Shown here piece after piece: positions 47,858 through 58,295 of a DNA stretch of 58,295 nt. A program made the translations under genes and the position numbers. Origin of the DNA: an uncultured Bacteroidota bacterium (GTDB lineage: Bacteria > Bacteroidota > Bacteroidia > Chitinophagales > LD1). Under the pieces are notes generated by a model. The model was given only the letters and a program-made list of their open reading frames with translations. It searched no databases and was not told the origin of the DNA. Position 1 is the first letter of the stretch. Each line of letters opens with the position of its first letter. Where the stretch lies: NCBI GenBank assembly GCA_903861145.1, contig CAIOTH010000013.1:1-58295 (forward strand), written 5' to 3'.

Positions 47858-50689
47858 TTACCCCTTCTTATAATACTTCAAAGTATAGGTAGCTGTAAGC
47901 AATAGGTACCGTTTAATTACCTGGGTCCTGTCGTCTTCAACATAGGTGCCGGTTACGGTACGGCTGATGCCGCTGTTTTGATTGAGGATATCGTTTACAC
48001 TAGCACGTATTTCCAGCGATTTATCTTTTAAGAATTTATAGCCCAGCGCGGCGTTCCAAATAAAAATATCCTGGTTAAAGCCTTGTGCTACGCCCTCGTA
48101 TAAAGTGTTTTGCAAGGAAGTATTAAATACAAACCCTTTATAAAACAACCAATTGAATTTTACCGAGGCGGTGTGGTTAAAGTAATTGTTGTTGCCGGTT
48201 TGTTGCAGGGTATTGTTTACAATGTTGTAGCTGCCCGAATACTGAATGGTAAAATCAATTTTCTCGCTGATGTTACTACCTAATACAAAACCGCCATTTA
48301 CGTTGTACGTGCTGCTCCAGTTGGTAAGGTTATTAATTAACCCCGGTGAGTGGTTATAACTAACACCACCGGTGAGGTTCATGTTGCACTTCATCTTCTC
48401 AATCGGGAAACCATAATTTACAAAGGCGTTGCCGTTTATTGCCCCGTTTAAATTAACCGGCGAGGTAAGTTGCGAGCCTTTATGCAACATTACCGAGTTG
48501 TTAAGCATAGTATCGTTCGCCGCAATCAACGTTGAGCTGCCTACATAATTTTGGGTGTATGTAGCTGTTAAAAATGCAAAGAGAGAATTGGCTGTTTTCT
48601 TTTTAGTTAACCCATACCTTATTAAAAGTGAATGCGAGTACGATTGCTTTAGCAATGGGTTACCGGTTGTAAGCAACAGTGGATTGCTATTATTAATTAC
48701 GCTCTGCAATTGCGATATTGATGGTGGGCTGGTGGAGGTGCGATAGAAGATGCGCAAACTCGTTCCGCTATCCGTTTTAAACGTAAACATGGCATTAGGC
48801 AATACGTTGATAAATGTGCGGCTGGTATTATAATCCGTAGGGAAAACCTCCGTGCCGGTCAACAATGCGTATTGCCCGTTAACACCGGCTGAAAAGTTGA
48901 TACCTTTGCCGGCAAACCGGTATGTTACACCCGCCTTTTGGGTCATGTAAATATCGGTGTATTTATTGCTGAACGCAGTATCAAGTACGCTATAAGCTTC
49001 AAGCAGCGAATCGTAATTTTTGGTGGTTTGGTTGGAGTTGTTCCATTGGTTAGAAGGGGTGTAATTAAATTGAAGCATCCCTGTTTTGCCAACCGGTTCG
49101 GTATAAGCAAGGTTAGCGCCTAGTGTGTAACTGTTGCTATATGTTGGCGAGGTTTGATTTAACCAAACAGAATCGTTGTTTTCGGAATAGTAGTTTAACG
49201 ATTGCAGCATGGCATGGGCCACTTTATTGTTGTAGGTTGATGAGAAGTCAATAGAAATAGTGCGCCTGCGCTTTTTAAATTTATGTTGAAACAGGATATC
49301 GCCTGAAAGGTTATAAGCAAAGTTATTTGAGGAGGAATTAGTTTGCGATTGGCTTAATGGTTCAATTTGTGCAATAGTGGTTTGCCCGAATTGATTAAGT
49401 ATTTGGTTGTTTTGTTGCAGGTTTAGTTTGGGGGTGAAAATGAACTTGTTCATCGTATCAATGGCATACTCTATTCGGATATTTACCCGGTGGTTAATGT
49501 TGCGACCTTGTGTTTGGTCGGTTTCTTTATAATAATCCGAGCTATCTCCCGAGTTAAAATACTGGCGTGTAAGCGAAGTTGAGTTGCTATTGTTGGTGAT
49601 ATTAAAAAAGTAACTGGCCGCAACTTTTACCTTTTTCTGCTTGCCCCATACATCAACATAATTAAGGCCCGCCGAACCGGTTGTTGATACACCGGGCGTT
49701 TGCCCGATTAAAAAATTGCCTGCACTGGCCGCACCGCCGCCGCCACCCTGGCCGCCACCTCCTCCTCCACCGCCTCTTCCTCCACCAAAACCATTGCCTT
49801 GCCTTTGTGTTGAAGTGCCGATTACACCCAATATATCCTGCGTTGAAAAATTTTGTTGGTTAATGTTATTGCCCATGCCTATCAACGAAAGACGCCTGTC
49901 GCCATTAAACCAATTGAGTGAACCACCAACCGAGTAAGTGCTGTTGGTTAAATAACCGTAGCCTGCGTATAGCTTTCCAAAAACACCATTACGGCGGTTC
50001 TTCTTGGTTACTATGTTAATGGCCTTTTGCGAGTTGCCATCATCAAAACCTGTAAACTGCGACTGGTCACTTGCTTTATCAAATACCTGCACTTTGTCTA
50101 TCACATCGGCAGGCAGGTTTTTTAAAGCCAGTGTGGCATCTTGCCCGAAAAACTCCTTGCCGTCAATATATACCTGCTGTACGGTTTCGCCATGCGCCGT
50201 AACCGTGCCGTTGTTTGATGTAATACCCGGCATTTTCGCAACAAGGTCCTCGGCATTAGCATCGGGGTTTACTTTAAAGGCATTGGCATTATACTCGCTG
50301 GTATCGTCTTTTTGTTTTACGCGGTCCTCTTTGGCAACAATTTGCACATCCTTAAAAGTGGTAGGGTTTTTAACCAATAAAATATTGCCCATGTGCTTAT
50401 CGGCACCGCTTATTTTTGGTCGTAGCTGTATCGTTTTGTAGCCCAGGTATTTTATTTCGAGCACATAAGCTGCTGAAGGAAGATTCGGAAAAGAAAACCT
50501 GCCACCAGTATCGCTCTCCATACCGGTGTATTTTGTGCTATCAGCCTGGTACGTCAATTTAATATAGGCCCCAGGCATTGTGGTGTGGTCCTCGGCATCA
50601 CTAACTACTCCGTCTAATTTAAACATTTGAGCCGAGGCGGTGCCCGTAATTACAAACAGTAAGAATAAAATACGGGCTAAAGATTTCAT
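47858..50689 (-). CDS. Outer-membrane beta-barrel protein with CarboxypepD_reg-like N-terminus and plug
   Basis: About 943 residues from the ATG at 50689, with signal peptide MKSLARILFLLFVITGTASA; the frame opens further upstream but the longer start would precede the signal by 13 residues. An N-terminal CarboxypepD_reg-like region (FKLDGVVSDAEDHTTMPGAY, YVLEIKYLGYKTIQL) is followed by a TonB-plug-like segment (DANAEDLVAKMPGITSNNGT, VQQVYIDGKEFFGQDATLAL), a Gly-rich loop of about 25 residues near residue 300 and a long OMP_b-brl_3-type barrel with alternating aromatic strands. It may be a TonB-dependent or TonB-independent outer-membrane protein; the substrate is unknown. It runs against glmS with 6 bases between. 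Confidence 0.85.
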   Translation of the reverse strand: MKSLARILFLLFVITGTASAQMFKLDGVVSDAEDHTTMPGAYIKLTYQADSTKYTGMESDTGGRFSFPNLPSAAYVLEIKYLGYKTIQLRPKISGADKHMGNILLVKNPTTFKDVQIVAKEDRVKQKDDTSEYNANAFKVNPDANAEDLVAKMPGITSNNGTVTAHGETVQQVYIDGKEFFGQDATLALKNLPADVIDKVQVFDKASDQSQFTGFDDGNSQKAINIVTKKNRRNGVFGKLYAGYGYLTNSTYSVGGSLNWFNGDRRLSLIGMGNNINQQNFSTQDILGVIGTSTQRQGNGFGGGRGGGGGGGGQGGGGGAASAGNFLIGQTPGVSTTGSAGLNYVDVWGKQKKVKVAASYFFNITNNSNSTSLTRQYFNSGDSSDYYKETDQTQGRNINHRVNIRIEYAIDTMNKFIFTPKLNLQQNNQILNQFGQTTIAQIEPLSQSQTNSSSNNFAYNLSGDILFQHKFKKRRRTISIDFSSTYNNKVAHAMLQSLNYYSENNDSVWLNQTSPTYSNSYTLGANLAYTEPVGKTGMLQFNYTPSNQWNNSNQTTKNYDSLLEAYSVLDTAFSNKYTDIYMTQKAGVTYRFAGKGINFSAGVNGQYALLTGTEVFPTDYNTSRTFINVLPNAMFTFKTDSGTSLRIFYRTSTSPPSISQLQSVINNSNPLLLTTGNPLLKQSYSHSLLIRYGLTKKKTANSLFAFLTATYTQNYVGSSTLIAANDTMLNNSVMLHKGSQLTSPVNLNGAINGNAFVNYGFPIEKMKCNMNLTGGVSYNHSPGLINNLTNWSSTYNVNGGFVLGSNISEKIDFTIQYSGSYNIVNNTLQQTGNNNYFNHTASVKFNWLFYKGFVFNTSLQNTLYEGVAQGFNQDIFIWNAALGYKFLKDKSLEIRASVNDILNQNSGISRTVTGTYVEDDRTQVIKRYLLLTATYTLKYYKKG

Positions 50690-50804
50690 CTTTTGAAATA
50701 ACAGGCATTTAAAGGCCAATACCGGCAAATCTGCGGTATGTTATTCAATTAATTGCAAATAATTCGGAGAAACGCGGTTTTACCTCGGCTAGTTCAAATC
50801 TGAC

Positions 50805-51614
50805 CTATGGTATCACTAAGCTGGCGGTGCGCACAGTATGAGCAGAAAAATAACCCAAGGCCCCACCAAGAATATTAGTCGGTGGGTTTTGAGGAGTTGC
50901 TGTCGAAACCGGATTCGAAGCGCCAGTGATACTCTTAACTACCGAAAAGTATTTGTAAGTATTAGCATCAATACACATCAAAACCACCTTCACCGAATCA
51001 TTAGTGCTTGGATTAGCCATACGCAACCTTATCCCCTGGGGCAACCCATTGGTGTATTTATCTTCATCCAAAGCTATATCGCCGGTGCTATCCTGCAACA
51101 CATTATTAACGTAGGCTTCTACCTTATAAAAATTAGTATATGCAACGGGGTCTATAAAATAGCAGTGTACGTGGTAATTTGTATCCGGCGCATTACCCAC
51201 CTCATTCGAAGTTATGCTGTCTATATTAACCGGTAAGGGCATAGTTGAAACAGCATCGTATTCTTTGCCTAAAACCGTTGCCTTCATGGTATATGTTCTT
51301 CCCGGTATACCGGTTAAATGGGTGGCCGCATATTTGCCGCTATCAACCTGTATAAAAGTATCGGTTACTCCCATATTATCGGTTACAATAATTGTGGCGC
51401 CATTAACCCTTGCGAAATTGCCCGGCGTAAAATAACTACCCGTTTGAGTAATTAAAACAGTATCAACCAAAGGCTGGTCGGTAACATAAGCCTCAATCAC
51501 CAATTGCTTACCCGAAGAATTTAAGTCAATATGAATAACCCTTTCGCACGAACCAAAAATGAGTGCCGCTGCAACAAGAAAGCCAAGCCTGATTATATTT
51601 TTTCTGCGCCTCAT
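50805..51614 (-). CDS. DUF4249 family lipoprotein
   Basis: A 269-residue lipoprotein (MRRRKNIIRLGFLVAAALIFGSC, Cys in GSC) of the DUF4249 family: CERVIHIDLNSSGKQLVIEAY and TVLITQTGSYFTPGN-type Ig-like strands, GKYAATHLTGIPGRTYTM. DUF4249 genes typically sit next to a SusC-like receptor in Bacteroidota and the encoded protein is presumably a surface partner; here the receptor gene precedes it with only one base between stop and start. The outer-membrane transport role is inferred from that pairing. Confidence 0.88.
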   Translation of the reverse strand: MRRRKNIIRLGFLVAAALIFGSCERVIHIDLNSSGKQLVIEAYVTDQPLVDTVLITQTGSYFTPGNFARVNGATIIVTDNMGVTDTFIQVDSGKYAATHLTGIPGRTYTMKATVLGKEYDAVSTMPLPVNIDSITSNEVGNAPDTNYHVHCYFIDPVAYTNFYKVEAYVNNVLQDSTGDIALDEDKYTNGLPQGIRLRMANPSTNDSVKVVLMCIDANTYKYFSVVKSITGASNPVSTATPQNPPTNILGGALGYFSAHTVRTASLVIP

Positions 51615-51615
51615 G

Positions 51616-53949
51616 TTACAAAAATTTAAAGTTGTAAGTAATTGATGGCACCCACCTGAATAAAGTTAACTGCACCGCCTGGTTTTGCCCCGGGTTATTG
51701 GGGTCTTGCTGAAAGTTTATGGCGTAAGCGTTTCGCCGGCCATAAACATTGTAAAGCGAGAGGTTAAGGTTGTGGTCCCACTTTTTGTGCTTTTTCAACT
51801 GCACGGTTGCACCTATATCTAACCGGTGGTAATCGGGCATACGATAACCATTACGCTCGGTATATTGAGGCACGGTAACATTGCCAATCTGGTAGCTTCC
51901 GCTAGGCCAGGTAACGGCATTACCGGTATAGAAAACCCATACGGCTGAAACACTCCATTTTGCATTAATATCATAAATAGCCACCAGCGATATTTCGTGC
52001 GTGCGGTCTTGCTTGGCATAGTAAGGCACGGCATTATCAATATCCGGAAACTTGCGTTGGCTACGACTCCAGGTATATGCAGCCCAGCCATGTATTTTCC
52101 AAATATCAAACTTCATCATTGTTTCAACGCCGTAACTCCACCCGATACCATACACCAACTGCGACTCAACATAACGGTTCAAAATCAAATCGGCCCCACT
52201 GGCATAGTCAATCTGGTTTTGCATGTATTTATAATAAACCTCCACCGATGGCTGCAATCCGCCCTTCAAAAAATTACCGAAATAACCGATAGCACCCTGG
52301 TCCGAAATTTCCGGCTTCACCAGTTTACTTGTAGGTACCCATAAGTCGGTTGGATTAGTTGAAGTAGTGTTGCTTAACTGGTGCATGTACTGGCTATTAC
52401 GGTCGTACGATAGCTTGATAGAGTTATGCTCGTTAATTATAAAATTCATGCACAATCTTGGTTCCAAATCCCAATAAGTAACAATGGGCTGGGCTGCTTT
52501 ATATACTGTTGAATCAGTAGGGAAATTAGTCTCTGGATCGTATTTGTTGTAAGTGGTTTGCGAACCAAGCGCCGTAAAAACCGATAAGCGCACACCATAT
52601 ATCATTTTAAAAAACGGTGCAATAGTTTGTTCGTTGCCGGCATAAACTGCGTTCTCTAAAGCATGTGTTTTACTTTGGTTGAGCGATACAAGTTTATTCA
52701 TACCAATGGCCGTAACCTCACCGGGTATAAAGGTGTGGTATATCATATTGAAGCCAAAGTGCAGTTTATTTTTACTGTTGGGATAATATTGAAAATCTTC
52801 TTTCAAATTAATATCCTGTATGCCCGATAAAATGGTTGCCTGGGCACTATCTTGTCCCACCAGTATTTTGTAATTATAATTATTGAAAATGAACGAGGTG
52901 TTTGAGAAAAGTTTTTCATTAAAAATATGGTTCCAGCGGGCTGTAGCGGTAATGTTACCCCAGTTTAAAGCAAAGCGGTTATCGAAGCTAAACACATCGC
53001 GGCCGATATATCCCGAAACAAAAACCCGGTCATGGTCGCCCAGGCTATAGTTGGCTTTTAAATTTACATCATAAAAATACAATATGCTTTTATTTACCCT
53101 GCTGTTACTCGAAAGCTTGGCAAACAAGCCAGGATAAGCAAAGCGCCCCGAAGCCATAAACGAGCCTTTGTGCTTTTTAATAGGCCCTTCAACTGTTAAA
53201 CGCGAGGTAATAAGCCCAATACCCCCCGAAAAACTATAATCCTGATCATTCCCATCTTTCATTTTAACATCTACTACTGAGGCCAAGCGGCCGCCATATT
53301 CAGCAGGCATACCTCCCTTATAAAGCGTAACATCTTTAATGGCGTCTGAATTGAAAGTGCTGAAAAAACCCAGCAGGTGTCCCGAATTGTAAACCGGCGC
53401 CTCATCCAAAAGCACCAGGTTCTGGTCGGCCCCGCCGCCTCTTACATAAAATCCGGCATTCCCCTCACCGGCCGATTTTACACCGGGAAGTAACTGAAGG
53501 GTCTTCATAATATCTTTTTCGCCAAAAAACACCGGTATCTTGTCAATTTCCTTGGTGGTCATGGTTTCTGCGCCCATTTGAGCCGAGGTAACATTTTTAT
53601 TGCCTTTATCGGCTTTCACTACCACTTCCTGCATGGTTTTAATCTCTTCACCCATCGAAAAATTGATGGTGGTATCGCGGGTAAGATTTAGTATAAATAC
53701 CTTTTTGTTGTAGCCAACGTATTGCGCCAAAATGGTGTCTTTACCCGGGTGAACAGTAAGTGAATAGAAACCGTATGCGTTAACACTGGCGCCGTTTTGA
53801 GCATCGGATATGGAATAGATAACAGCCCCGGTCATTACCTCGCCGTTTTTGGCATCTTTTACGGTGCCACTTATCGTCACTTTCTTTTGTGCCTGCAAGC
53901 CGGTCAATAACAGACACAGGGATAACAACAATAAAAAGGCTTTGGGCAT
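51616..53949 (-). CDS. TonB-dependent receptor
   Basis: A 777-residue receptor: signal peptide MPKAFLLLLSLCLLLTGLQA; a CarboxypepD_reg-like domain (KVTISGTVKDAKNGEVMTG, YSLTVHPGKDTILAQYVGY); a plug domain (EIDKIPVFFGEKDIMKTLQL, GNAGFYVRGGGADQNLVLLD, GHLLGFFSTFNSDAIKDVTL, GGMPAEYGGRLASVVDVKM); and the C-terminal barrel to SITYNFKFL. Receptors of this kind import a siderophore, metal complex, vitamin or sugar using TonB energy. A DUF4249 lipoprotein gene follows directly. The upstream gene pair on the other strand encodes MbnP and MbnH, hinting at a metal-related substrate (inference). Confidence 0.92.
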   Translation of the reverse strand: MPKAFLLLLSLCLLLTGLQAQKKVTISGTVKDAKNGEVMTGAVIYSISDAQNGASVNAYGFYSLTVHPGKDTILAQYVGYNKKVFILNLTRDTTINFSMGEEIKTMQEVVVKADKGNKNVTSAQMGAETMTTKEIDKIPVFFGEKDIMKTLQLLPGVKSAGEGNAGFYVRGGGADQNLVLLDEAPVYNSGHLLGFFSTFNSDAIKDVTLYKGGMPAEYGGRLASVVDVKMKDGNDQDYSFSGGIGLITSRLTVEGPIKKHKGSFMASGRFAYPGLFAKLSSNSRVNKSILYFYDVNLKANYSLGDHDRVFVSGYIGRDVFSFDNRFALNWGNITATARWNHIFNEKLFSNTSFIFNNYNYKILVGQDSAQATILSGIQDINLKEDFQYYPNSKNKLHFGFNMIYHTFIPGEVTAIGMNKLVSLNQSKTHALENAVYAGNEQTIAPFFKMIYGVRLSVFTALGSQTTYNKYDPETNFPTDSTVYKAAQPIVTYWDLEPRLCMNFIINEHNSIKLSYDRNSQYMHQLSNTTSTNPTDLWVPTSKLVKPEISDQGAIGYFGNFLKGGLQPSVEVYYKYMQNQIDYASGADLILNRYVESQLVYGIGWSYGVETMMKFDIWKIHGWAAYTWSRSQRKFPDIDNAVPYYAKQDRTHEISLVAIYDINAKWSVSAVWVFYTGNAVTWPSGSYQIGNVTVPQYTERNGYRMPDYHRLDIGATVQLKKHKKWDHNLNLSLYNVYGRRNAYAINFQQDPNNPGQNQAVQLTLFRWVPSITYNFKFL

Positions 53950-54130
53950 GGGTGTTAATTAAACGGACGCAAATAAACGAAGTCTATTGTTAATTATTGC
54001 CGGCTTGCACTTATGTTAAAATTATTTCTGAAATATTAATAAAACATGGGGGTGATTGGTTGTTAATAGCCACTGGTTATTTAATAAAAGTTGTTTTTTA
54101 GTTTACCTTCGAAACCGTCAAAAATAAAAC

Positions 54131-54859
54131 ATGAGAATTCAAAACATTTATATAGTTGTATTCTTGAGTGGGCTACTTGCTTTATCATCATGCAAAAAAA
54201 ACGGGGCTACTTTTTCTTTACAGTTAAAAGCAAAATACGGCACCCAAAATTTCAGGCTTAACTCCACTTACACCGATCCAGCAGGAAGATATGTAAACCT
54301 GGCTACTTTAAAATTTTACTTGTCGCATATTAATCTTATTAAAAGTAATGGTAGCCTCGTAAAAGTAGCAGACATAGCTATTTTTGATTTTAGTGATACA
54401 ACAGCACTTTCTGTATCTGTACCAAATATGGACGGCACCTTTACCGGGATTAGTTTTGCATGCGGCCTCGATTCAGTTACTAATACTTCGGACCCACTGA
54501 ACTACTCCGTTCCAAATCCTCTGGCGGGCGATTATAACATGTACTGGTCAATGCTAAAATATCAGTTTGAAGTATTGGAGGGAAAATGGGATACACAAGA
54601 CACTGCTTTTTTGCATAATCCGCTGGCTTATCATATTGGCACCAATGCAGCTTACCGCCAAACGCAGCTGAATAAATCCTTTTCAATTTCCAGTAGCAAT
54701 TATACCATGGTGGTGTATTTAGATGTTGAGCAAATATTTAATAATACAACAACCGGCGAAACCATCAACATTGTTACTGAGTTTTCTTCCATGTCAACAG
54801 ATAATCAACCTGTGATGGTAAAGTTTGCCGATAATTTTTCAAAGGCATTTTCATTGTAA
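54131..54859 (+). CDS. MbnP-family copper-associated lipoprotein
   Basis: A 242-residue lipoprotein (lipobox LLALSSC, Cys21). Family blocks: FSLQLKAKYGTQNFRLNSTY, LATLKFYLSHINLIKSNG, ISFACGLDSVTNTSDPL, GDYNMYWSMLKYQFEVLEGK. MbnP-type proteins are known from methanobactin loci, where the partner diheme enzyme MbnH oxidises a conserved Trp of MbnP to kynurenine and MbnP binds copper. Here W139 and W153 stand in the right block, and H66, H162 and H168 could be ligands. The MbnH-like gene starts 9 bases after its stop, supporting the pair. A TACCTTCG box at 54104-54111 is a weak promoter candidate. There is no methanobactin gene nearby. Confidence 0.75.
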   Translation: MRIQNIYIVVFLSGLLALSSCKKNGATFSLQLKAKYGTQNFRLNSTYTDPAGRYVNLATLKFYLSHINLIKSNGSLVKVADIAIFDFSDTTALSVSVPNMDGTFTGISFACGLDSVTNTSDPLNYSVPNPLAGDYNMYWSMLKYQFEVLEGKWDTQDTAFLHNPLAYHIGTNAAYRQTQLNKSFSISSSNYTMVVYLDVEQIFNNTTTGETINIVTEFSSMSTDNQPVMVKFADNFSKAFSL

Positions 54860-54868
54860 AAGGAATTC

Positions 54869-56002
54869 ATGAAAGCCAAAATTCTATTTCTCTTATCATT
54901 GGTTATTGTTTTGCTTTCATTAGAGAATTGCAAGCCCGACCCTAAAACACAAACTACGTCCACCGACCCCGATAGCCTGTACCGGGGTACAAAATATATC
55001 ATCCAAATACCATTCGGATTTCCGAGCCTTACCAATCCCTATAAAGATTCGCTAACAGTTGAGGGCATTCAGTTAGGCAGAAGGCTTTTTTATGATAAAA
55101 GACTTTCATCTACCGGGTTATTGGCCTGCGCTTCGTGCCATATGCTGCAACATGGTTTTGCAGATAGTATTGTGTTAGCAACTAACGTTTCGGGGCTTAA
55201 CAAACGGAACGCGCCTACTATACAAAATTTGGCCTGGGCACCTATTATGTTTTGGGATGGAAGGCAGCCTACCTTAGCCGCACAGGCCCAGGATGCCGGG
55301 CATAACGAATTGGGCTTGTTACCAGCCAGTGCAGTGCCCATGTTGCAGGCCGATAGTGTATATGCACGCCTTTTCAGAAAAGCATTTGGCAGGCCTGGCA
55401 AGGTTACCGAAAGTGAAATCTACCTGGCAATTCAAGAATTTGAAATGAGCGCCATATCAGCCAATTCCAGGTTCGATAGCTTGCAGCGCGGTCAAGCGCA
55501 ATACACGCCAGAGGAATCGGATGCCTTCTTCACTATTTTTACTCAAAACACCGGAGAGTGTTTTCATTGCCATGCTGAGGGCAATGATTTGTTAATGGTA
55601 AACCGCACAAGTGGGTTTACTTTTCGTAACAACGGCTTACAGGTTGCTAATACCATTAATGATTTTGCCGACGCAGGCAGGGGAGCAATTACTGGTTTAA
55701 GCACTGATTATGGTTTATTTAAAAACCCTACTCTTCGCAATATTGCTGTAAGCGGGCCCTATATGCACGATGGGCGATATAAAACGCTTGAGCAGGTAAT
55801 TAATTTTTACAGCGATAGCCTGCACCTAACGCCTAATGCCGACCCAAATATTGCCCTGCATATGGATACAGCTAATGGCGAACATTTATTAACAGGTGGC
55901 ATGCATTTTACAGCTCAGCAAAAGGCGGATTTACTAATTCTGCTAAATGATATGACCGATACTTCGTTTTTAAATAACCCGAACCTGAAAAGCCCTTTTT
56001 AA
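54869..56002 (+). CDS. Diheme cytochrome c peroxidase/MauG-family enzyme (MbnH-like)
   Basis: A 377-residue lipoprotein (LSLENC, Cys21) with two c-type haem motifs, C87-A-S-C90-H91 and C231-F-H-C234-H235. Blocks GRRLFYDKRLSSTGLLACAS, LNKRNAPTIQNLAWAPIMF, WDGRQPTLAAQAQDAGHNE and VSGPYMHDGRYKTLEQVIN place it in the bacterial CCP/MauG family. Its position 9 bases after an MbnP gene makes an MbnH role likely: Trp oxidation of the partner rather than peroxide removal. It faces the convergent agmatine deiminase gene with 4 bases of overlap. Confidence 0.85.
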   Translation: MKAKILFLLSLVIVLLSLENCKPDPKTQTTSTDPDSLYRGTKYIIQIPFGFPSLTNPYKDSLTVEGIQLGRRLFYDKRLSSTGLLACASCHMLQHGFADSIVLATNVSGLNKRNAPTIQNLAWAPIMFWDGRQPTLAAQAQDAGHNELGLLPASAVPMLQADSVYARLFRKAFGRPGKVTESEIYLAIQEFEMSAISANSRFDSLQRGQAQYTPEESDAFFTIFTQNTGECFHCHAEGNDLLMVNRTSGFTFRNNGLQVANTINDFADAGRGAITGLSTDYGLFKNPTLRNIAVSGPYMHDGRYKTLEQVINFYSDSLHLTPNADPNIALHMDTANGEHLLTGGMHFTAQQKADLLILLNDMTDTSFLNNPNLKSPF

Positions 56003-57039
56003 ACTTCGGGTTCTTGTTGAGAGAGGCAGTGAAAACTGCCTAACCCCCAGATTAAATCGGTAGAGTCCAGCCCAACCACCTTTCTATCCTTAAAGCAATC
56101 CTGGAGAATATCTAATGCCCGTTGGTCGTTTTTGTCATCTCTAAAAACAGGCACTACCACATACTCATTAGCAATATAAAAATTGGCGTACGATGCAGGC
56201 AGGCGTTGATCTTCGTAAACAACATTATGTGGCATTGGCAATTCAACAATATTTATTTGCTGGCCATTTTCGAGTCGCATTTTTTTCAGCTCCATCAAAT
56301 TTTCCTGAAGCGGTTCGTAATTCTGGTCTGCCCTGTTTTCTTCAATAACCGTAATTACGGTATCGGCATTTACAAAGCGGGTAATGTCATCAATGTGGCC
56401 ATCGGTATCATCACCGGCTATACCATCGCCCAGCCATAAAATATTTTGCACGCCATAATAATCTACAAGATACTGCTCAATTTGTTTTTGCGAAAGCAGC
56501 GGATTGCGGTTTTTATTTAGCAGACAGGCCGTTGTGGTAATCAGAGTTCCCTTACCATTAAAATCAACTGAGCCTCCCTCCATAATAATGTTGGGATAGA
56601 ACACAGGTAATTTTAATTTCTCGCCAATCAAGGTAGGTATAACATCATCCAAATCGTAGGGCGGATATTTATCGCCCCAGGCATTGTAGGCCCAGTCAAC
56701 AATCGCCTTTTCCCTTGTGGTTCTGTTTATCACAAAGGCAGGGCCATGATCGCGGCACCATGCATCGTTAGTTGGATGAAAATAAAACTCAACATTAGCC
56801 AAATTGCATTTTGCCATTTGCAAATGCCCCGAGGCAAATTGCTTCATAGCATCATTTGCTACGTTGATACAAACCTTTTGCCCCTCGGCTACCAGTTTAA
56901 TGAACTGTGCATATACAGGGAAAATGGTGTCAATCTTTCCGGGCCACGATGCCTCTTTATGTGGCCACGATAACCACATGGCATGTTGCTTTTCAAACTC
57001 AGCAGGGAAAAAAAATCCCAATTCGCGAGGTGTTTTCAT
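55999..57039 (-). CDS. aguA: Agmatine deiminase
   Basis: A 346-residue enzyme that converts agmatine to N-carbamoylputrescine plus ammonia. The catalytic Cys is C338 in GLGSFHCLSQQEPEV, with the typical DTDGHIDDITRF site (His near residue 215) and MEGGSVDFNGKGT. Blocks WLSWPHKEASWPGK and FHPTNDAWCRDHGP, the guanidinium-binding half, are also there. The gene overlaps aguB by one base (TAATG on the minus strand), so the two enzymes of the agmatine route to putrescine are translationally coupled. Length is normal. Confidence 0.95.
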   Translation of the reverse strand: MKTPRELGFFFPAEFEKQHAMWLSWPHKEASWPGKIDTIFPVYAQFIKLVAEGQKVCINVANDAMKQFASGHLQMAKCNLANVEFYFHPTNDAWCRDHGPAFVINRTTREKAIVDWAYNAWGDKYPPYDLDDVIPTLIGEKLKLPVFYPNIIMEGGSVDFNGKGTLITTTACLLNKNRNPLLSQKQIEQYLVDYYGVQNILWLGDGIAGDDTDGHIDDITRFVNADTVITVIEENRADQNYEPLQENLMELKKMRLENGQQINIVELPMPHNVVYEDQRLPASYANFYIANEYVVVPVFRDDKNDQRALDILQDCFKDRKVVGLDSTDLIWGLGSFHCLSQQEPEV

Positions 57040-57914
57040 TAGTCTTCGTCGATAAATCTTTTGGTAATGGGTTGGTACGAGTCAATTCTTCTATCGCGCA
57101 TAAAAGGCCAGTGGGTTCGATAGAAATCAGTTTTCTGCGTGTCTATTTCAACCACAGCGTTTTCTTCTTTATCGTGCGATGCCAGGTAAAGCAATTTACC
57201 AAATGGGTTTGATACAAAACTTCCACCCCAAAATTTCATCCTGCCCTCTTGCTCAAAGCCCACACGGTTTACACTTACCACATGTACCCCATTGGCCACC
57301 GAATGCGAACGCTGAATGGTTTGCCATGCATTATACTGCTCCTGATTGGTAGCTTCATCCTGATTAGTGGCCCAACCTATTGCCGTTGGGTAGAAAATAA
57401 TTTCAGCGCCCATCATGGCTGTAATACGGGCAGCTTCGGGGTACCATTGGTCCCAACAAATAAGCACGCCCAGTTTGGCGTATTTGGTATTAAATACTTT
57501 GTAACCTAAATCGCCGGGAGTGAAATAAAATTTTTCGTAAAACGCGGGGTCATCCGGAATATGCATTTTGCGGTATTTGCCTAAATACTTACCATCGGCA
57601 TCAATAACCGCTGTAGTATTATGATAAAGCCCCTGGGCACGCTTTTCAAACAAAGAAGCTATGATAACTACATTCAGTTCAGCGGCCACCTCGCTTAACA
57701 CATCGGTTGATGGGCCGGGAATAGTTTCAGCCAGCTTAAAGTTTTCGTAATCTTCCACATCGCAAAAATACAAGGATGTAAAAAGCTCCTGCAGACAAAT
57801 AATTTGGGCACCTTTAGCAGCTGCATCGCGTATTCCATCAATAGCTTTTTGCAGGTTGGGCTGCACATCTTTAACGCAACTCATTTGCACTAAACCCACT
57901 TTTACTTTGGCCAT
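57039..57914 (-). CDS. aguB: N-carbamoylputrescine amidase
   Basis: A 291-residue nitrilase-superfamily enzyme with the triad E43 (LQELFTSLYF), K116 (KYRKMHIPD) and C153 (LICWDQWYPE), which releases carbon dioxide and ammonia from N-carbamoylputrescine to give putrescine. It is first in the unit, with aguA following by a one-base overlap. A promoter-like TTG-N20-TATTTTCG lies upstream. Confidence 0.95.
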   Translation of the reverse strand: MAKVKVGLVQMSCVKDVQPNLQKAIDGIRDAAAKGAQIICLQELFTSLYFCDVEDYENFKLAETIPGPSTDVLSEVAAELNVVIIASLFEKRAQGLYHNTTAVIDADGKYLGKYRKMHIPDDPAFYEKFYFTPGDLGYKVFNTKYAKLGVLICWDQWYPEAARITAMMGAEIIFYPTAIGWATNQDEATNQEQYNAWQTIQRSHSVANGVHVVSVNRVGFEQEGRMKFWGGSFVSNPFGKLLYLASHDKEENAVVEIDTQKTDFYRTHWPFMRDRRIDSYQPITKRFIDED

Positions 57915-57934
57915 AGCTTAAAATTTTAAGTGCG

Positions 57935-57965
57935 CGAAAATAAGATTATTAGAAACAAGATTCAA
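57935..57965 (-). promoter_or_regulatory. Promoter of aguB-aguA (TTG-N20-TATTTTCG)
   Basis: On the minus strand TTG (57965-57963), 20 bases, then TATTTTCG (57942-57935), a one-base variant of TAnnTTTG. It is 21 bases before the aguB start codon, so the leader would be short. Confidence 0.5.
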
Positions 57966-57995
57966 GAATCGGGACACAAGCAACATTTTGAAAAA

Positions 57996-58295
57996 CTAAT
58001 GTCCCTGTATAAGCTTTGCAAGCAGGAAAGCAACACCAGCGGCTAAGGCACCAATAAAAGTAGTTTTAATAGCTCCTGTCCAGGTCGGTTGGCCAATGGC
58101 TTTGGCCTTCAAAAATCCAAAAATAAAAAGTGCTATCAACGTTACCCCAACCGAAACCAGCAACGCCTGGTGCGAATCTTTAATAAAAAGATAGGGCGAA
58201 AGTGGTACAAGCCCACCAACAATATAGGCCACACCAATATTGAATGCACTTTTGCGGGCACGCTGTGCATCGGGCATTTCTAAACCCAATTCAAA
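57996..58295 (-). CDS. VIT-family (CCC1/VIT1) metal transporter, C-terminal part, cut by window edge
   Basis: The frame is open to the right edge, so only the last 99 residues are visible (from Phe-Glu-Leu at 58295). Three hydrophobic stretches (FNIGVAYIVGGLVPLSPYLF, ALLVSVGVTLIALFIFGFLK, AIKTTFIGALAAGVAFLLAK) and the motif AFNIGVAYIVGGLVPLSPY match the C-terminus of VIT1/CCC1-type Fe/Mn transporters. The N-terminal part lies outside the window. It is upstream of aguB on the same strand with 81 bases between them. Confidence 0.8.
   Translation of the reverse strand, partial: FELGLEMPDAQRARKSAFNIGVAYIVGGLVPLSPYLFIKDSHQALLVSVGVTLIALFIFGFLKAKAIGQPTWTGAIKTTFIGALAAGVAFLLAKLIQGH

Follow-up and report, generated by a model that had tools for sequence, protein, structure and literature searches.

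A probable methanobactin-independent copper module, MbnP and MbnH, next to a probably separate TonB receptor in an uncultured Bacteroidota bacterium

In Methylosinus trichosporium OB3b the first tryptophan of a WxW motif in the MbnP protein is oxidised to kynurenine (Kyn) through its partner MbnH, a modification that is required for Cu(I) binding, and the Cu(I) ligands of this protein include histidine and methionine. The occurrence of MbnP/MbnH pairs (MbnPH) outside methanobactin operons has already been published, according to the part of the source available (PMC3621798). Two further systems enter the comparison. In Bordetella, CruR is an upstream open reading frame (ORF) that senses copper; it has a CXXC motif and, at a fixed spacing, a terminal RAPP motif for arrest, and homologues of it stand first in operons whose genes include TonB receptors and MbnPH-like ones (PMC9426467). 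Proteins of the DUF4249 family form a known conserved operon with their own receptor subfamily (PMC11003636, in part). Here we describe a locus in the window, i.e. the whole stretch of 58,295 nucleotides (contig CAIOTH010000013.1, assembly GCA_903861145.1) from an uncultured Bacteroidota bacterium, in which an MbnP and an MbnH-like gene stand divergent from a TonB-dependent receptor and its DUF4249 partner. The source genome (G000; 4.7 Mb, 174 contigs, 98.65% complete) encodes six MbnPs and five CCP_MauG proteins.

The reading that we favour, with a probability of about 0.68, is that MbnP and MbnH of the window constitute a self-contained, methanobactin-independent copper module of the cell envelope, and that the receptor–DUF4249 unit is a separate system. 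MbnP would be made as a lipoprotein, and MbnH, a MauG-type diheme enzyme, would oxidise W139 to kynurenine; Kyn139 and H168 (perhaps joined by M137) would then hold one Cu(I), and the most likely role of the pair would be to buffer copper outside the cytoplasm or to deliver it there, for instance to cuproenzymes. The receptor and DUF4249 protein would represent an uptake system of their own, brought beside the pair a single time, in a common ancestor of three members of the genus. The analysis itself establishes the families, the fold, the conservation of Trp and His that goes with MbnH and the distribution of the receptor, from which the oxidation, the copper binding, the location and the physiological role are inferred. 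The features concerned are the following.

54131-54859, plus strand: MbnP, a likely lipoprotein (C21); PF20243, 97.6 bits (cut-off 27)
54545-54547, plus strand: codon of W139 in MbnP, the predicted kynurenine site
54578-54580, plus strand: codon of E150 in MbnP
54632-54634, plus strand: codon of H168 in MbnP, a candidate copper ligand
54833-54835, plus strand: codon of N235 in MbnP
54860-54868: gap of 9 bases between MbnP and MbnH
54869-56002, plus strand: MbnH-like diheme enzyme; CCP_MauG PF03150, 141.7 bits (cut-off 25.6)
53950-54130: divergent intergenic region of 181 bases between receptor and MbnP
51616-53949, minus strand: TonB-dependent receptor; Plug and CarbopepD_reg_2 (Pfam)
50805-51614, minus strand: DUF4249 protein, the partner of the receptor; PF14054, 82.6 bits (cut-off 28.5)

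By sequence and predicted fold, the lipoprotein of the window is an MbnP. A phmmer search of the PDB with the single MbnP sequence gave no match up to E 1, so that a profile was needed; built from 26 MbnPs, it finds 7l6g (OB3b MbnP) at E 1.5e-5, and in the alignment W139 falls on the first Trp of WxW in 7l6g and H168 on the His of its 'VHVG'. With the structure model (mean predicted local distance difference test score, pLDDT, 92.3) as query, Foldseek retrieves from the PDB nothing but six 7l6g chains at E<=0.001, and VIA-align pairs the model with 7l6g at Z 17.4 and a root-mean-square deviation of 2.7 over 199 aligned residues, the rows that follow (Z 5.1 or less) being ignored. W139 corresponds to the position that is turned into kynurenine in the studied OB3b protein, and H168 is part of a Y167-H168-x-G170 motif. 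A kynurenine-dependent Cu(I) site in the window MbnP is a likely prediction.

The enzyme encoded downstream carries two CxxCH haem motifs (residues 87 and 231) and the sequence PYMHDG at 297, and its best PDB match (E 3.4e-45) is 6e1c, 'Di-heme enzyme', which we take to be OB3b MbnH. Its score on the MbnH model TIGR04039, 202.9 bits, does not reach the cut-off of 362.85, and the enzyme is therefore termed MbnH-like; the window MbnP likewise scores 30.9 bits on the equivalog TIGR04052 (MbnP_like_WxW; cut-off 140), which places the pair outside these strict groups. The MbnHs of the window and of two relatives, G006 and G011, form one clade (support 100). The nearest relative in the source genome itself is an enzyme on C136 (55%) that lies near MbnPs with F at the Trp site; in this cluster (L013) three MbnPs have exchanged W for F, and an M1 peptidase with a type IX secretion system sorting domain stands between them and MbnH. 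Nowhere in the draft genome, 98.65% complete, is there a match to the MbnB family (PF05114) at E<=0.001; the same search detected this family in 2 of 14 control genomes. The preliminary description of the locus, made from the window alone, has thus been upheld on several counts: all four families (MbnP-like, MauG-type, TonB receptor and DUF4249) are confirmed by Pfam, the layout, strands and gaps of 181 and 9 bases are as it gave them, with the DUF4249 gene just beyond the receptor-to-MbnH interval that it covered, and the pair occurs without a detectable MbnB-family gene.

The fate of the Trp in other MbnPs bears on the function of the pair. Two sets were compared, both including the source genome: relatives, where MbnP occurs in 50 of 60 genomes and 106 of 112 matches were kept (six were dropped before counting because they scored low or were gapped at the Trp position, two of which had a non-W letter, N and F), and a phylum sample, where MbnP occurs in 31 of 118 genomes and 35 stretches were read, leaving out places covered earlier. 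An MbnP was counted as MbnH-adjacent if its own strand carries an MbnH ORF no more than 400 bp away. This applies to 79/106 MbnPs of the relatives and 37/37 of the phylum sample, and for this reason the pairing is not chance. W is kept in 79/79 MbnH-adjacent MbnPs of the relatives and 36/37 of the phylum sample, 115/116 together; among the 27 MbnPs of the relatives that have no MbnH within 400 bp it is lost in 17 and kept in 10 (4/19 with no MbnH near, 3/4 with MbnH at 400-3000 bp, 3/4 at contig edges). The kynurenine site had been proposed to be W139 or W153; these counts speak for the former, and W153 was rejected, since this position is W in 7/71 MbnPs. On a quick tree with a simple model, the Trp changes three times, in one clade of 15, in G018 and in the C7 paralogue of the source genome, and all three changes fall in rows without an adjacent MbnH. 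The C7 paralogue (L014:650-1405), the closest to the window MbnP at 57%, has R in place of W and no adjoining MbnH, and can be described as an orphan copy.

Other residues follow the same pattern. H168 is H in 77/79 MbnH-adjacent MbnPs of the relatives compared with 6/17 Trp-less ones (and in 37/37 of the phylum sample), E150 is kept in 71/79 compared with 7/17, and N235 in 66/79 compared with 9/17; G112, F109, G151 and F240 are retained in 17/17 Trp-less MbnPs. Natural Trp-less MbnPs without a close MbnH may thus single out H168, E150 and N235 as MbnH-dependent residues of the site. Overall, the association between Trp and MbnH is consistent across these alignments, but few events lie behind it.

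The receptor presents a different picture. Its nearest relatives are found in G011 (81%), G006 (79%), G012 (79%) and G013 (76%), the others listed being at 55% or less. The divergent receptor–DUF4249/MbnP arrangement recurs in G006 and G011 only, where the MbnPs are 51-53% identical to that of the window; the receptors of G012 and G013 lie on contigs without an MbnP match, and none was found in the stretches read (11.9 kb in G012, where the contig breaks off within DUF4249). A tree of 16 receptors unites those of the window, G011 and G006 in one clade (support 100/99). A DUF4249 protein, sought with a profile of 12, accompanies MbnP in 3/132 loci (78 genomes), and 10/60 genomes yield no MbnP match, a receptor of the wider family being present in 60/60. 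The preliminary description had made the adjacency of the receptor's relatives to MbnP/MbnH decisive, and this came out divided: two of the four nearest relatives adjoin the pair and two sit on MbnP-less contigs. The relatives are thus not 'never' adjacent, yet the three occurrences, window included, belong to one clade and DUF4249 is found in 3/132 loci, which makes the receptor link weak. The further suggestion that the receptor acts as the uptake gate of the pair is unsupported on the same grounds. Because of the DUF4249 count, the single receptor clade, the receptor contigs of G012 and G013 without MbnP and the 10/60 genomes with no MbnP match, we consider the receptor unlinked, that is, probably a neighbour and not a part of the MbnP/MbnH pair.

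G006 and G011 keep a whole run of genes, namely barrel, DUF4249, receptor, MbnP, MbnH, AguA, AguB and VIT, into which a DUF5723 gene that is not in the window and, in G011, two more genes are inserted. Flanking genes on both sides are therefore kept as well, and the closeness of receptor and MbnP is not specific. In the window the outer members of the run are as follows.

47858-50728, minus strand: outer-membrane beta-barrel protein (PF14905), which contains a long glycine-rich run
55999-57039, minus strand: AguA, agmatine deiminase-like, convergent with MbnH; PF04371, 394.4 bits; NCBIfam agmatine deiminase models matched below cut-off only
57039-57914, minus strand: AguB, N-carbamoylputrescine amidase-like; PF00795, 199.7 bits; TIGR03381, 311.7 of 410.25
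57996-58295, minus strand: VIT-family (PF01988) transporter, partial, the gene being cut by the end of the window; its homologue at L047:12548-13249 scores 239.2 bits on PF01988

The DUF4249 gene starts one base past the receptor, and the two form a unit. In the intergenic region, a block near the start of the receptor gene recurs in front of the receptors of G012 and G013, whose contigs have no MbnP match (alignments by eye), and on the MbnP side a TAnnTTcG-like box recurs at several MbnPs without a window-type receptor (by eye, without statistics); this box resembles the Bacteroidota consensus. Shared regulation of receptor and MbnP was considered and rejected, as block and box look separate by eye. 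Scanning 53800-54200 for sigma-70 sites gave one, versus 1.8 expected, which is uninformative. The model of the DUF4249 protein has a pLDDT of 77.3; its six rows at E<=0.001 are two-domain immunoglobulin-like or similar proteins with TMq 0.18-0.26, and they were not used.

Genes that recur around MbnP in other genomes bear on the metal. Four genomes of genus g4 combine MbnP>MbnH with an opposite-strand VIT gene, a heavy-metal P-type ATPase (CcoI-like) and CcoN/FixO, and the copper reading draws on these genomes because they place the ATPase and CcoN/FixO beside the pair. In the respective stretches (L055, L056, L059 and L060) the latter is a fused CcoN/FixO protein. A VIT homologue lies within 6 kb of MbnP in 10/78 genomes, of g1 and g4, and on the same strand in 0/10; in the phylum set, CcoI-like ATPases occur near MbnP in three genomes, with no VIT and no CcoN. 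Homologues of the PF14905 barrel are found within 6 kb of MbnP in 4/78 genomes. VIT also occurs together with AguB and AguA in several genomes (55999-58295 in the window; L052:5684-7489), and in G013 a different gene of 341 codons, agmatinase-like by eye, takes the place of the Agu genes.

A number of observations weigh against a separate copper module. Ten MbnPs without a close MbnH retain the W, and the MbnP of G144 (L229:8349-9119) has F at the Trp site despite an adjacent MbnH. In the window MbnP the second Trp of the WxW motif is replaced by M141 (W139-S-M141, i.e. WxM), and M137 is kept in 16/17 Trp-less MbnPs and is thus not specific to a copper site. The Fisher p of 4e-13 for the Trp–MbnH association in the relatives overstates independence, since 15/17 Trp-less rows belong to one clade, and an independent-pairs test is not significant and, with three changes, cannot reach significance. 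As to the receptor, receptor-like ORFs lie within 4 kb of 12/106 MbnPs (sought with loose seeds, the PF14905 barrel among them), and in G071 and G092 of the phylum sample receptors lie 1.1-1.2 kb from MbnP; the profiles for receptors near MbnP were made from few receptors and undercount other TonB receptors. In published accounts, isolated MbnPH pairs of methanotrophs have MbnT-like receptors nearby (PMC3621798), mbnPH is upstream of mbnT in Methylocystis SB2 (PMC9601215), and CruR operons combine TonB receptors with MbnPH-like genes (PMC9426467). The methanotroph associations would suit a scheme in which a copper complex is taken up by receptor and DUF4249 and its copper passed on to MbnP, the four genes forming one uptake system. 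The divergent arrangement that persists in G006 and G011 despite the 51-53% identity of their MbnPs points the same way, as does a wider-family receptor 14-24 kb from MbnPH in the g4 genomes G020, G025 and G027. However, the flanking neighbours persist too, with a few inserted genes, so that closeness is not specific; the g4 receptors group with the C17 paralogue of the source genome and not with the window type; and the counts for DUF4249 (3/132) and for MbnP-less genomes (10/60, against 60/60 with a receptor) make a single system of four genes improbable.

A role of the pair outside copper metabolism, in which MbnH oxidises the MbnP Trp and the product serves another metal or the disposal of peroxide, we judge to be about equally doubtful. 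VIT proteins are mostly associated with iron or manganese, and copper binding is a prediction for the window MbnP; on the other hand, H168 is mostly lost together with the Trp, the g4 genomes have the CcoI-like ATPase and CcoN/FixO beside the pair, and the fold is that of OB3b MbnP, a copper protein. The same g4 arrangement (P>H>, opposite-strand VIT, CcoI-like ATPase, CcoN), together with the presence of VIT in 10/78 genomes across g1 and g4, could be taken to mean that copper from the pair goes specifically into the assembly of cbb3 oxidase and that the VIT transporter is a third component. We give this very little credence: g4 is a single genus, VIT is encoded on the strand opposite to MbnP in 10/10, and the phylum set has the ATPases in three genomes with neither VIT nor CcoN. 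The separate copper module remains our preferred reading, and the view of the locus is corrected to a credible copper pair with a weak receptor link.

The result of greatest interest concerns genes beyond the window. Comparison of MbnPH operons reveals two unnamed families, here called 'a' and 'k', that join or head them. The 'a' proteins are Cys-rich and barrel-like (e.g. L049:9555-10493 and L013:17778-18719) and are encoded within 6 kb of MbnP in 31/132 loci (31/78 genomes), on the same strand in 31/31; one homologue falls just below the cut-off of Phenol_MetA_deg (20.6 of 22). The k proteins, of ~125 residues, occur within 6 kb of MbnP in 39/132 loci, and 40/42 copies are on the same strand. 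The order k>a>P>H is seen in 8 loci, k>P>H in 9 and plain P>H in 56; k comes first in most orders that contain it, an ATPase precedes it in two loci and it is on the opposite strand in two. Among the source genome and its relatives k is present in 30/40 genomes, two of the weaker matches having an internal stop. NCBIfam yielded no match up to E 0.1 for two examples each of 'a' and k, and no Pfam match over cut-off was obtained for the k proteins tried.

All 43 k proteins of the MbnP loci, with the one from the source genome among them, which as homologues gathered by similarity to one k query are not independent, have a CxGxC motif and a PP pair 1-5 residues from the end; the spacing between them is 63-69 residues in 41/43 (71 and 74 in the others), and the middle is hardly conserved. 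As a background, PP is present in the last 12 residues of 39/1756 other genes, and of 24/356 small ones. Invariant columns in 24 rows are I34, C39, C49, G51, C53, P119 and P120. In 30 short k loci, which overlap the 43, CxGxC and terminal PP are found in 30/30 at a spacing of 59-73. In 17 of these loci k is followed by 'a' and in 5 by a full-size member of the MbnP family; in 3 the next gene encodes a lipoprotein (YtkA-like in two cases) and the one after it a TonB receptor, and in 5 there is another gene or the contig end. The MbnP label is loose in these loci and marks some lipoproteins of 122-148 residues, which were not counted as MbnP. The source genome has one k (L013:18788-19156, on C136), at the head of 'a' and a Trp-less MbnP. 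The window pair has neither k nor 'a', and a six-frame reading of 53950-54130 shows no small ORF of the k type.

Taken together, a tentative joint reading is that many MbnPH operons of Bacteroidota are run by k, in which Cu(I) binding to the invariant cysteines of the nascent protein and stalling of the ribosome at the terminal PP might decide the expression of 'a', MbnP and MbnH downstream. In that case the outer-membrane partner would usually be 'a' rather than a TonB receptor, and the window pair an offshoot without both k and 'a'. The DUF2946 profile (CruR) gave no match up to E 10 in the four tested of the 43 k proteins. The genus does have a DUF2946 protein, encoded ahead of a receptor in G013 (L080:12115-12522; 31.3 bits, cut-off 23.7), and none was found in the source genome. 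This ORF and L014:3783-4160 are both small, His/Cys-rich, end in RGPP plus a few residues and precede a TonB receptor by 82 and 76 bp, respectively; the latter, unlike the former, has no DUF2946/CruR match.

How do these elements compare with systems described elsewhere? The window pair shares with OB3b MbnP (7l6g) and MbnH (6e1c) the fold, the first Trp of WxW, the conserved His and the neighbouring diheme enzyme; it differs in scoring below the NCBIfam cut-offs, in having WxM for WxW and in the lack of a detected MbnB-family gene in the genome. MopE/SACCP and CorA/CorB of methanotrophs likewise pair a Kyn-containing Cu(I) site with a diheme peroxidase (PMC3912023, in the part available), a site that is predicted for the window; CorA differs in having two His ligands beside Kyn62 (same source), and neither MopE/SACCP nor CorA is among the PDB matches listed for the MbnP profile or by Foldseek. 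The receptor with its adjoining DUF4249 gene is arranged like the BT2172/BT2173 operon (PMC11003636, in part), a likeness of gene arrangement. In its anatomy, k looks like a copper-sensing arrest peptide of the CruR type: both are small, have a hydrophobic N-terminus, usually come first in the operon, and combine a Cys motif with a terminal PP at near-fixed spacing, whereas k has CxGxC instead of CXXC and a spacing of mostly 63-69 instead of 45 (PMC9426467, available sections). The stem 'bacteroid' has 0 occurrences in the main text of that paper, and k appears undescribed, no literature search having been aimed at it. If the likeness holds, k would be CruR-like but built separately, a second system of this kind, and it offers a testable lead as a candidate translational copper sensor.

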